37,221 nucleotides of DNA, taken from positions 1 to 37,221 of the forward strand of contig JAJRPE010000280.1 in the NCBI GenBank assembly GCA_024280935.1. The letters run 5' to 3'. The notes below the pieces were generated by a model. The model worked only from the letters and a program-made list of their open reading frames with translations, was not told the origin of the DNA and ran no database searches. Within the stretch, counting starts at the first letter, position 1. Each line of letters opens with the position of its first letter. The position numbers and the translations under genes were made by a program. The stretch is from Candidatus Hydrogenedentota bacterium. GTDB lineage: Bacteria; Hydrogenedentota; Hydrogenedentia; Hydrogenedentales; JAEUWI01. Below, piece by piece: positions 4,190 through 30,438 of this stretch.

Positions 4190-4580
4190 TAACCACCGGC
4201 AGAGCCGGGGGTATGAGGAGGGCCCCTAAAAGGGGCCGATTCGTCAAACTCAGGGTACGAAGCCAAAGCAGTTAGTCCCGTAGGGACGACATATCGTAGC
4301 CCAGCGGTGAAGCGAGGTACGAGCGGAACCCTGGGTAGACCGGTGCACGAAGGGCTGAACTCCGAAGGAGTGGCATAGAAAACTCCTGACACATTCCCAA
4401 CACCTCTATGCCACCCCTTCGGGGTTAAACATCTCTTGCATTCGAGCTATCCCAGGGTTCGCTTCGCTCACGCCTGGGCTACGATATGTCGTCCCTACGG
4501 GACTAGAACAACATGGCGCACACCGCGCAGTGTATGAATGCCAACAACTAACGCCGGAACGGCAGAGCCGGTGGATTAAG
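4190..4580. repeat. R3 palindromic repeat, copy 1
   Basis: This intergenic block of about 390 bp begins with the hairpin CCACCGGCAGAGCCGG (4194-4209) and ends with CGCCGGAACGGCAGAGCCGG (4552-4571). Inside it is a perfect 31-bp inverted repeat: AGTCCCGTAGGGACGACATA... at 4274-4304 pairs with the arm at 4474-4504. A shorter hairpin arm, AAGCGAGGTACGAGCGG, is at 4310-4326. The same ends and a related core are found at 23076-23473. No open frame in it looks protein-like. Confidence 0.7.
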
Positions 4581-4638: not shown

Positions 4639-4828
4639 TGTCATTCCCGCGAACGCGGGAATCCAGTGAGTTTCGGCGGTTTGTGCGTTCGCGAGGATGA
4701 CGAATACGGGCGTTCCTTCCAAACGGTAGGGGCGAATGCGTAAATCGACAGGCCCGCACGTGGGAATCCAGGACACGGCGGGTTTGCCCCATGTCGCCAC
4801 TGGATCCCCGCGTTCGCGAGGATGACGG
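4639..4828. repeat. R4 palindromic repeat array
   Basis: Two R4 units lie in tandem upstream of the regulator gene. The first is short (4639-4702): TGTCATTCCCGCGAACGCGG at the left and GCGTTCGCGAGGATGACG at the right. The second (about 4740-4828) contains CACGTGGGAATCCAGGACAC and ends CTGGATCCCCGCGTTCGCGA-GGATGACG. Over its right 70 bp it matches the 84-bp copies at 15361 and 18907. A detached left end matching the second unit in inverse lies at 4162-4189, on the other side of R3 copy 1, so the arrays have been rearranged or broken by insertion. Confidence 0.7.
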
Positions 4829-13426: not shown

Positions 13427-13621
13427 GGGTGCCACCTACACAGACACGAGGTACGAGTGGCTTTGTGGGTGTGGAGCACCAGGATGTGTCAGGAGTTTCC
13501 AGAAGCAGTTTCGGTGGCGTGCAACGCACGTTTTTGACATCAAAATATGGCGCGAGTGTCCTGACGCGAACCCGCACCCACAAGCTTAGCCGCGAAGCGG
13601 CTGCGCGTGTAGGTGGCACCC
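13427..13621. repeat. R2 paired palindromic repeat, copy 2
   Basis: GGGTGCCACCTACAC starts at 13427 and its inverse GTGTAGGTGGCACCC ends at 13621 (195 bp apart). The inner tails TTGTGGGTG and CACCCACAAG also pair. The left unit contains GACACGAGGTACGAGTGG; the right unit carries the self-complementary AGCCGCGAAGCGGCT. The 13241-13426 stretch before it holds a degraded unit starting TTCGGGCGCCAC (13266), which matches the left end of copy 1, and no gene. The remaining 13622-13854 shows only a T-rich, low-information leader to the next gene. Confidence 0.7.
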
Positions 13622-13854: not shown

Positions 13855-14808
13855 ATGCCCCCTATTCGTACCGGCGTTGTCGGTGTTGGACACCTCGGCT
13901 ATCACCATGCCCGGAATTACGGGGCCTTGGACGGGGCCGAACTGGTGGGGATCGCCGACCCCGACGAGGCTAACCGGGCAAAAGCGACGGCGGACTTTGG
14001 AGTCCCTGGCTTCTCCGACGTTGCTCCCCTCATCAAGGCGGGCGTTGAGGCCGTTTCCGTTGTAACACCGACCCTGTCGCACGCCAAGGTAGTTAACGAA
14101 TTGCTTGAAGCGGGGATACATGTACTGGTCGAAAAACCCATTGCACCCACCCTGCAAGAAGCCGAAACGATGGTGGCGCTGGCCAAGGCGCACAAACGCA
14201 TTCTCCAAGTCGGCCACATCGAACGATTTAATGGGGCCGTGCTGGCCTTCTCGGAAGCCATCAAAGCGCCACGCTTCATCGAATGCCACCGGCTAAGCCC
14301 CTTTCCTGGGCGCGGCACCGACGTGAGCGTGGTGCTGGATCTCATGATCCACGATCTGGATATCGTCCTCGCCATGGAACACTCGGAGGTCGTTTCCCTC
14401 GACGCTTCGGGCGTTGCCGTATTCTCCGAGAGCGAAGATATTGCAAACGTGCGTCTTCGCTTCGCTTCGGGCTGTGTTGCCAATCTTACCTGTAGCCGGG
14501 TCTCCCTGGATGCCATGCGGAAAATTAGAATCTTCGAGAAAAACGCCTACCTCAGCACGGACTACAGCGCCCAAGAGGTTTTGGTCTATCGCAAGAAACC
14601 GGGCCCCATCCCCAAGGGAGAGAATCCCATGGAACACATCGTCATGGAACCCCTTCCGGTGGAAAAAGACGAGCCCCTCAAATTGGAATTGCGCTCCTTC
14701 ATCGATTGTGTGCGCCGTGGCAAGACACCCGTGGTCAGCGGTGAAGATGGCGTCAAGGCACTTCGACTGGCCCAGGACATTATGGACTTTATTCGGGATC
14801 ATCCGTGA
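13855..14808 (+). CDS. Gfo/Idh/MocA dehydrogenase in the lpx cluster, GnnA candidate
   Basis: The ATG at 13855 is preferred over 13804 because AAGGA lies eight or so bases upstream and the Rossmann motif IRTGVVGVGHLGYHHARNYG then begins at residue 4; the product has 317 residues. The E-K-P motif is intact (HVLVEKPIAPTLQEAE). It overlaps lpxB by four bases (GTGA), so the two are co-translated. In Acidithiobacillus ferrooxidans and Leptospira, the related GnnA oxidises the 3-OH of UDP-GlcNAc so that GnnB can aminate it, giving amide-linked lipid A. A similar role is possible here, but no GnnB-type aminotransferase is adjacent. Its function could instead be another nucleotide-sugar oxidation. 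Confidence 0.9.
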   Translation: MPPIRTGVVGVGHLGYHHARNYGALDGAELVGIADPDEANRAKATADFGVPGFSDVAPLIKAGVEAVSVVTPTLSHAKVVNELLEAGIHVLVEKPIAPTLQEAETMVALAKAHKRILQVGHIERFNGAVLAFSEAIKAPRFIECHRLSPFPGRGTDVSVVLDLMIHDLDIVLAMEHSEVVSLDASGVAVFSESEDIANVRLRFASGCVANLTCSRVSLDAMRKIRIFEKNAYLSTDYSAQEVLVYRKKPGPIPKGENPMEHIVMEPLPVEKDEPLKLELRSFIDCVRRGKTPVVSGEDGVKALRLAQDIMDFIRDHP

Positions 14809-16154
14809 AACGAATCTACCTCGTAGCCGGGGAAGAGTCCGGCGATATACACGGCGCAAACCTCATCCGCGCACTTCAAGCCCAGTCACCCGACATCGAG
14901 TGCGAGGGCCTGGGCGGTCAACGCATGGCCGATGCTGGGATGACGCTTCACTACGATCTCGCTGGCGATGCCATTATGGGATTCACCGAAGTGGTCAAAA
15001 AATTTGCTGGTATTCGCCGCCTCTTCCTGGACGCGGTCGAACGAATAGAGCAAGCACGGCCCGACGCGCTGGTACTCATTGACTACCCTGGCTTTAACAT
15101 CCGCCTCGCAAAACGTATCAGCCAATTGGGCATCCCCATCGTCTTCTACATCAGCCCCCAGGTTTGGGCCTGGAAGAAAAAACGAATCCACACGCTGGCA
15201 AAATACGTGGACAAAATGCTGGTCATCTTCCCCTTTGAAAAAAACCTCTACGATGCCGTGGATCTCGATTGCGCCTATGTGGGCCACCCCCTCCTGGATC
15301 ATATTGGCAACTACAAACATAAACACGACGGCGACGAGCACAGCCAAAGGCTATCCACACCGTCATTCCCACGAACGTGGGAATCCAGAACGCGGCAGGA
15401 CGTTTCCCGAACATCGCTGGATCCCCGCGTTCGCGGGGATGACGAGGTGCCGTCACCCTCATGCCGTGAACGCAAACCCACCCCTAACCCCACCAAGGAG
15501 GGGAACAAGAAGACGTTGGCTCCGCCAACAGCAACGTGTCATGAGCACGCACAAAGCGCTTCCGATGATGCTCCCGTCATCGGTTTACTCCCCGGTAGCC
15601 GGGAACAGGAGATTAAGCGTCTCCTCGGCCCCATGATCGAGATCGCCCTGGGCCTTCACGAAACCCATCCCGAGGCCCGTTTTGTCGTCCCTGTGGTCAA
15701 CGAAGCGCGTGCGGAACAGGCCCGAAAAATCGCCGATAATTTCCCGCTGGACATACAGGTCGGCGGCATGTACGATATCCTCTCTGCCGCACGCTTTTGC
15801 ATGGTCGCATCGGGCACTGCGACGCTGGAAACAGCGCTCTTCGGGGTTCCCATGATTATCATGTACAAGGTCACGACGGTCACGTATTGGCTGGCCCGGT
15901 TGTTGGTAGACATTAAATATATCGGTATCGTAAACATACTGGCAGACCGGGAGATTGTTCCCGAATATATCCAAGGCACCATCCAAACCGAACAAATCCT
16001 TCCCCGAGTCCTTACCCTGATAAACCCATCCCCAGAACGAGCACAAATGCTGAGCGATCTCCAAGAAGTACATGCCATGCTGGGCGATGGCGGCGCATCT
16101 GCCAGCGCAGCCCGTGAAATCCTCACCCTCATCGATGGAGCACCCCATGCGTGA
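14805..16154 (+). CDS. lpxB: Lipid-A-disaccharide synthase with in-frame repeat insertion
   Basis: LpxB (GT19) joins UDP-2,3-diacylglucosamine and lipid X to give the disaccharide core of lipid A at the inner membrane face. Family motifs are complete: VAGEESGDIHGANLI at the N-terminus, IDYPGFNIRLAK, YISPQVWAWKKKRI, YVGHPLLD, GLLPGSREQEIKRLL and VASGTATLETALFGVP. The protein has 449 residues against about 380 usually. The excess lies between GHPLLD (about residue 160) and PVIGLLPGSR (about 257), where about 30 residues are normal. This insert contains a translated 84-bp R4 element and further low-complexity sequence (PTPNPTKEGNKK). The GTG start overlaps the preceding gene by four bases, and the 3' end overlaps polA by eight. 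All motifs on both sides stay in frame, so the enzyme may well be active. Confidence 0.96.
   Translation: MKRIYLVAGEESGDIHGANLIRALQAQSPDIECEGLGGQRMADAGMTLHYDLAGDAIMGFTEVVKKFAGIRRLFLDAVERIEQARPDALVLIDYPGFNIRLAKRISQLGIPIVFYISPQVWAWKKKRIHTLAKYVDKMLVIFPFEKNLYDAVDLDCAYVGHPLLDHIGNYKHKHDGDEHSQRLSTPSFPRTWESRTRQDVSRTSLDPRVRGDDEVPSPSCRERKPTPNPTKEGNKKTLAPPTATCHEHAQSASDDAPVIGLLPGSREQEIKRLLGPMIEIALGLHETHPEARFVVPVVNEARAEQARKIADNFPLDIQVGGMYDILSAARFCMVASGTATLETALFGVPMIIMYKVTTVTYWLARLLVDIKYIGIVNILADREIVPEYIQGTIQTEQILPRVLTLINPSPERAQMLSDLQEVHAMLGDGGASASAAREILTLIDGAPHA
15361..15444. repeat. R4 palindromic element inside the lpxB coding sequence
   Basis: This 84-bp unit runs from CGTCATTCCCACGAACGTGG to CGTTCGCGGGGATGACG, with near-complementary ends and an inner GGAATCCAG/CTGGATCC pair. 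It aligns along its whole length with the inverted copy at 18907-18990, also 84 bp, and with the array at 4639-4828. At 28 codons it leaves the lpxB frame open; it encodes about residues 186-214, ending in SLDPRVRGDD. Confidence 0.9.
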
Positions 16155-18906: not shown

Positions 18907-18990
18907 CGTCATCCCCGCGAACGCGGGGATCCAGTGGCGACTTGGTGCAAACCTGTCGTGTTCTGAATTTCCACGTGCGTGAAAATGACG
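18907..18990. repeat. R4 palindromic element between polA and rho
   Basis: This 84-bp unit has CGTCATCCCCGCGAACGCGG at its left end and GAAAATGACG at its right. Read on the minus strand it aligns end to end with the copy inside lpxB. It starts 25 bp after the polA stop, preceded by a small GTGGCAAAGCCAC hairpin (18884-18896). It may serve as a 3' structure for the polA message. The rest of the 18883-19164 gap shows no gene and no convincing promoter. Confidence 0.85.
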
Positions 18991-30243: not shown

Positions 30244-30438
30244 GGGTGCCACCCTCACGCGGAGGAGCGAAGCGGGGGAGCTTGCGGGTGCAAAGCATCA
30301 AAACCAGAGTTACTATCAAAAAATGGACCCTATAGGTTGTCGTCACGCACTCCCTGACCACATGATACCGCAGATAATTTCCGCGAACCCGCACCCGCAA
30401 ACTTGGCCGGGAACCGGCTGCGTGTGAGGGTGGCACCC
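30244..30438. repeat. R2 paired palindromic repeat, copy 3
   Basis: GGGTGCCACCCTCACGCGGA starts at 30244 and the inverse unit ends TGTGAGGGTGGCACCC at 30438, 195 bp as in copy 2. The tails GCTTGCGGGTGC and GCACCCGCAAAC also pair. The left unit shares GGAGGAGCGAAGCGGGGGAG with copy 1; the right unit has the self-complementary GGCCGGGAACCGGC. It lies between the flagellar promoter and ubiE. Confidence 0.7.

Follow-up and report, generated by a model that had tools for sequence, protein, structure and literature searches.

The window analysed here, 37,221 nt long, is contig C398 of a draft metagenome assembly (6.76 Mb, 661 contigs, 94.8% complete), and it carries a gene for lipid-A-disaccharide synthase, lpxB, with polA as its next neighbour (Table 1). 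PF02684 (Pfam) and TIGR00215 each hit the LpxB protein as two stretches, matching both halves of one frame, as had been noted for the LpxB motifs on either side of the insert. The solved LpxB chains 5w8s and 5w8n likewise align as two blocks (query residues 4-166 and 253-441) with the insert between them, and in an AlphaFold model with a mean pLDDT of 82.8 the inserted residues 179-252 fall below 50. The insert, which thus sits between the LpxB domains, is predicted to be a disordered loop in the linker that joins them. The original prediction had also reckoned with a frameshifted lpxB or with another copy of the gene; the frame is intact, and no second lpxB was found in the draft genome, in which the LpxB body sequence matches this place only. 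The other 27 own-genome matches to the protein hit the insert region, one of them, on contig C57, beginning at residue 149.

Among named records, the top LpxB match was to Candidatus Hydrogenedentota MAG isolate Co_bin.7. LpxB was matched in 56 of 59 relatives (57 of 60 genomes when our own is included), whose first block ends at residues ~165-183 (203 in the split gene of relative G051) and whose second block restarts at residues ~247-259 (271 in relative G058). The GHP..PGSR linker, readable by pattern in 26 of 31 relative loci with the other five excluded, spans 29-31 residues in 25 of these and 43 in one, against 107 here. Compared with three relatives of the same genus (G003, G001 and G002), LpxB has a net excess of 77 codons in every case, all of it in the interdomain linker; the originally stated size of about 70 residues was too small. 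Net excesses were also present in FtsX (55 codons against each of the three), in MenE (55 against G003, 59 against G002) and in a GspL-like protein (52, 50 and 50), and the insert was absent from the genus relatives in all four genes compared. A separate situation was observed in G051, a relative from another family, whose lpxB breaks at this linker, its two parts lying on different contigs; an unrelated repeat, GSAAAGDVSGTQGQTRLTPVGRSL, stands in frame at the end of each contig (L100/L399 on C417 and L398 on C8). Another repeat appears to have invaded this tolerant site independently, and the LpxB interdomain linker seems to accept such insertions.

The repeat first noticed within lpxB consists of two inverted arms (15361-15388 and 15417-15444) around a spacer (15389-15416), 28 nt each as read from the sequence, and it occupies exactly 28 codons of the intact open frame. 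The full-length inverted match and the array copies reported with it were recovered as well: 64 of 84 positions are identical to the reverse complement of the copy downstream of polA, with no more than 46 reached anywhere in the window over 200 mononucleotide shuffles, and the top plus-strand match (57 of 84) lies in the 4.7-kb array. The second repeat-like stretch noted near 15479-15511 is real too, being a separate repeat that starts at 15475, reads AACCCACCCCTAACCCC..AAGGAGGGG, contains a CCCCTCC/GGAGGGG palindrome and has 36 matches in the own-genome stretches examined (type C); a relative with the same ends, in locus L301, measures 154 bp. What did not stand was the element's length of 84 bp, which is just the core of a larger element (as we read it, ~15330-15477) followed by a partial second one to ~15552. 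The 148 bp given for this larger, type B element is the length implied at the coding copies L193, L265 and L185, and its right flank in lpxB includes GTGAACGC at 15466-15473. The additional sequence in lpxB resembles a MITE of 148 bp with the dimer inside it, joined by a portion of another MITE. Its outer ends (15330 and 15552) were set by similarity only, the left resembling the type B end at 20 of 32 positions (chance 5e-5) and the right the type C end at 20 of 42 without gaps (chance 0.003). Since the ends were chosen in this way, the sums 223+8 and 148+8+75, both equal to 231 nt, are consistent with the excess and not independent proof. No target duplication was found at lpxB, the best 8-mer repeat agreeing at 5/8 for a spacing of 231 and at 2/8 for 156; these degenerate ends lacking a duplication count against a transposition reading at lpxB itself. 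Other repeats were also observed in the window. An Rfam match to Acido-Lenti-1 RNA at 4451-4504 (score 41.6, gathering threshold 37) overlaps the right arm of a 38-bp inverted repeat (4273-4310/4468-4505) and may be a repeat element, and another dispersed, GC-rich family occurs in direct and inverted orientation at 2318-2373, 13565-13621, 30244-30299 and 30382-30438.

Table 1. Features of the window around lpxB, followed by the genes in which coding copies of the repeat are read.
Feature	Position	Strand	Remarks
lpxB, lipid-A-disaccharide synthase	14805..16154	+	GTG start, 449 aa, single uninterrupted open frame; coding copy in frame +1
Putative whole inserted stretch	15330..15552	+	223 bp, or 231 nt (77 codons) when an 8-bp target duplication is counted
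Putative type B element	15330..15477	+	148 bp, comprising a degenerate left end, the REP dimer as core and a right flank
CGTC REP dimer core	15361..15444	+	84 bp = 28 codons, in frame
Type C repeat, putative 3' part of a second element	15475..15552	+	translated as PTPNPTKEGNKKTLAPPTATCHEH
Intergenic dimer copy	18907..18990	-	downstream of polA
Degenerate intergenic copies of the same repeat (4.7-kb array)	4639..4828	+	
L182			membrane protein, two copies, no Pfam match
L185			multiheme cytochrome, truncated by contig end
L193			family 2 glycosyltransferase
L195	996-3395	+	ABC exporter ATPase
L248			FtsX-type permease
L265			GspL/PilM-like protein, match below family cut-offs only
L266			MenE, TIGR01923 match split in two stretches
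L270			HEAT-repeat and F5/8 type C protein
L271			O-antigen-ligase-like protein
L288			frame without Pfam match
L244	1247-3952	-	YfhO-like protein, two copies, both in the orientation opposite to that in the other genes

Genome-wide, two patterns retrieved 96 + 23 = 119 strict dimers (control 0), a count that leaves out single REP arms and of which 118 were kept after removal of duplicates. The arms read CGTC ATTCCCAC GAAC GTGGGAAT CCAG, each with an inverted partner, and show the traits of CGTC REP dimers, namely the CGTC tag, a stem of 8-9 bp from AT, a loop of 4-5 nt and a CCA tail. Most strict copies lie outside genes, 12 of the 118 being accepted as coding. The core was matched at E 1e-5 in 15 of 59 relatives (16 of 60 with our own genome), its full-length matches being 72-80% identical, and had no match at this threshold in same-genus G003. 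Because matches in relatives are so sparse, the dense family is probably a recent expansion in this genome.

By a simple similarity rule that leaves many assignments weak, the flanks divide the copies into type A (78 of 118) and type B (40 of 118). Clear type B copies start with GTAAGCGTTCAC, which has 172 matches in the genome (reversed control 0), and finish with GTGAACGCTTAC. In the stretches examined, 39 end pairs lie 71-390 bp apart, some of them sharing one end; perfect 8-bp flanking repeats accompany 11 of these pairs (shuffle mean 0.28), and repeats of at least 7/8 accompany 15 (shuffle mean 0.6). The same ends bound different interiors, including the type C element, and type B together with its end family is thus characterised by inverted ends and 8-bp duplications. 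For type A a consensus was obtained, but clean inverted ends or a duplication were not found; its copies in FtsX and MenE have flanking repeats of 5/8 and 7/8 at 165 nt, with ends that are not clean.

A genome-wide search for further copies in coding frames, as the original prediction had proposed, yielded 14 copies (12 strict and 2 looser) in 12 genes, the calls resting on open frames, codon scores and domain matches, and in four genes also on the comparison with relatives. The strict filter on frame and codon score gave 14 copies, from which we removed L192, whose frame by eye resembles the antisense of another gene, and L179, with weak scores. The loose filter returned 16 rows from 167 loose matches, lpxB appearing twice, and added L270 and the second L182 copy; L192 was removed here too and L243 was rejected as a short frame, while L193, which failed the score filter of this set, was retained for its glycosyltransferase match and 8/8 duplication. 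Three type B coding copies bear perfect or near-perfect flanking repeats (8/8 in L193 and L265, 7/8 in L185) spaced exactly 156 nt apart, that is, a 148-bp element plus an 8-bp target duplication, or 52 codons; the other four of the seven tested (L182, L195, L271 and L288) show just 4-5/8. Among the intergenic type B copies, those whose duplications agree at 8/8 or 7/8 measure 134, 146 or 147 bp; these lengths are not in-frame, which counts against the reading proposed below. Two of the host genes hold further repeats: in the YfhO-like frame of L244, both the two REP dimers and fragments of the CCCCTCC/GGAGGGG repeat are read in frame, and in L195 the type C repeat (NPPLTPPRRGTRKTAPPAATC) follows the REP dimer by ~430 nt in frame, by eye the one used in lpxB.

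We consider it probable that a CGTC REP dimer, forming the interior of a MITE with IS66-like ends, moved into the interdomain linker of lpxB, where it is carried as a tolerated passenger. In the right orientation and phase, such an insertion would leave the gene unbroken and give its product a disordered loop, because 148+8 makes 156 nt (52 codons) and because one frame is usually free of stops and very hydrophilic. The rest of the 77 codons would come from an incomplete second MITE on the 3' side, which shares this end family, and the same process would have acted in ~11 other genes. We infer this route for lpxB from the anatomy of its relatives in the genome; the host proteins are presumably made and functional with their inserts, and harmlessness would be why the inserts persist.

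Regarding the mover, IS66 elements have ends beginning GTAAGC.. and generate an 8-bp duplication. A single, internally deleted IS66 transposase was found in L358 (contig C606), lying between GTAACCGTTCAC and GTGAACGCTTAC in a stretch that measures 657 bp with both ends; its 8-base flanks match at only 3/8 and its left end is one base off, which counts against it, and no complete IS66 was found in this genome. Given these ends around the remnant, an IS66-type transposase may have been the mover. We also inspected the more distant end pairs L354 and L355 for an autonomous element, but their frames look by eye like ordinary genes and no transposase was recognised. Alternatively, the repeat could be an ordinary REPIN, its dimer mobilised, as in Pseudomonas, by a RAYT (Y1_Tnp), and the larger ends could be coincidental flanking repeats. 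The core is indeed a REP dimer, and the genome contains 18 Y1_Tnp matches, 17 of which exceed the cut-off; however, a scan allowing up to 5 substitutions showed no core arm at any of the 8 loci read out of these 18 (up to 1.5 kb per side was scanned, in some cases ended by the contig), type B copies bear inverted ends and 8-bp duplications, and CGTC REPs are reported to have no RAYT association or dedicated transposase (PMC3733652). We therefore regard this alternative as unlikely. The contig of L358 itself also bears a Y1_Tnp match.

A second alternative is that the peptide was selected, as a loop useful to LpxB and other proteins in binding, localisation or regulation. In its favour, it is near-identical across unrelated proteins and strongly prefers one frame: 11 of the 12 genes use frame +1, with the peptide SFPRTWESRTRQ..LDPRVRGDD, against an expected share of 0.32 (binomial p 3e-5), a rough expectation since the +1 share of open frames in whole elements ranges from 0.28 to 0.32, coding copies are included and copies are not fully independent. 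Among translations of the consensus, however, none is more hydrophilic or more highly charged than that of frame +1 (GRAVY -1.66, with 11 of 27 residues charged; the next reaches -1.37), which would explain its tolerance. In whole elements this frame is open more often than any other frame (14 of 25 type B and 19 of 45 type A copies); in the core alone, frame -1 is open in 89 of 107 copies and +1 in 81, which counts against the argument from openness. Against selection, changes from the consensus are distributed over the three codon positions as 34/28/34 in 9 coding copies and as 175/182/196 in 63 others, so that the third position takes 35.4% of them in both sets (permutation 0.53), and stops in +1 occur in none of the coding cores and in 11 of the 63 others, a small difference. 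This test leaves out the 85-nt L182 copy and both L244 copies, and its consensus was drawn from the non-coding set, mostly type A, so that its power is low. Within that power, no codon-level sign of selection was seen beyond the frame staying open, and the equal spread implies that peptide similarity follows DNA similarity. The host proteins are moreover unrelated and the LpxB insert is predicted to be disordered; selection for a useful loop thus appears improbable, slightly more so than a REPIN, and the peptide is best read as a tolerated passenger. The suggestion that the repeat creates new protein segments consequently holds in the literal sense, provided that the genes are expressed, but not in the sense of segments shown to be selected.

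It is also conceivable that the mRNA hairpin, and not the peptide, matters by tuning lpxB-polA expression: the stretch 15355-15452 folds with -55.1 kcal/mol (z -6.35 against dinucleotide shuffles), but since the palindrome is part of the repeat inside and outside genes alike, and nothing here ties it to regulation, we hold this to be very unlikely. A fusion of two contig pieces at a repeat is hardly credible, even in a 661-contig draft and with the break of lpxB in G051, as both halves are lpxB in one frame with polA next, and ~11 more genes are read through similarly, three of them with duplicated target sites.

Much of what underlies the MITE reading is reminiscent of known systems. The described CGTC REP super-family shares the CGTC tag, 8-bp stem, 4-nt loop, CCA tail, dimers and intragenic location with our repeat; in several species, dimers or groups occur inside genes and encode 20-30 residues, and RPE-4 and RPE-6 are assigned to the same super-family (PMC3733652). 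Here, in contrast, the genome is of Hydrogenedentota type, and the dimer lies inside inverted ends with 8-bp duplications. As with the Rickettsia palindromic elements, each of which encodes a conserved peptide (PMC10969869), copies here are read in frame across numerous unrelated genes, and the peptide is conserved. The comparison drawn by the original prediction is therefore apt, since a mobile repeat stands in frame in a conserved lipid A gene, is absent from the relatives read and recurs in ~11 other genes; differences are the phylum, a much larger genome, the IS66-like ends and the duplicated target sites. Nor is this family unrelated to the Rickettsia case, as tag, stem, loop and tail fit the CGTC REPs including RPE-4 and RPE-6, a link taken from the description in PMC3733652. 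A second parallel is QMITE2 of Coxiella, a REP nested in a MITE of 150-190 bp with direct repeats of 7-11 nt and some in-frame insertions, which has a GTAG instead of a CGTC REP and is mainly intergenic and 3' untranslated (PMC5896051). IS66-family MITEs, as generally characterised, resemble our elements in their GTAAGC.. ends and 8-bp duplication, and an IS66 remnant lies between similar ends here; a complete IS66, as stated, was not found in this genome. In-frame REPs, CGTC dimers in genes, the Rickettsia elements and a REP inside a MITE are already known; what appears new is the lineage, together with transposon ends that enclose a CGTC REP. Neither CGTC REPs inside IS66-type MITEs nor coding repeats in Hydrogenedentota were found in the literature, a weak negative, as subscription literature lay largely outside the scope of the search.

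Our findings widen the range of protein-coding palindromic elements to a phylum that has been little studied, in a genome of 6.8 Mb, and the arithmetic of the filled sites can be tested on relatives. They also point to a way in which CGTC REPs may spread, one that is open to test: tentatively, and with rather more reserve than for lpxB itself, we propose that in this lineage they do so captured inside IS66-type MITEs, whose 148-bp form, taken with its 8-bp duplication, would happen to fit whole codons in a single hydrophilic frame and may act as a recurrent source of disordered loops in core proteins outside Rickettsia. Finally, they carry a warning, as automatic annotation will put such transposon peptides inside core enzymes.
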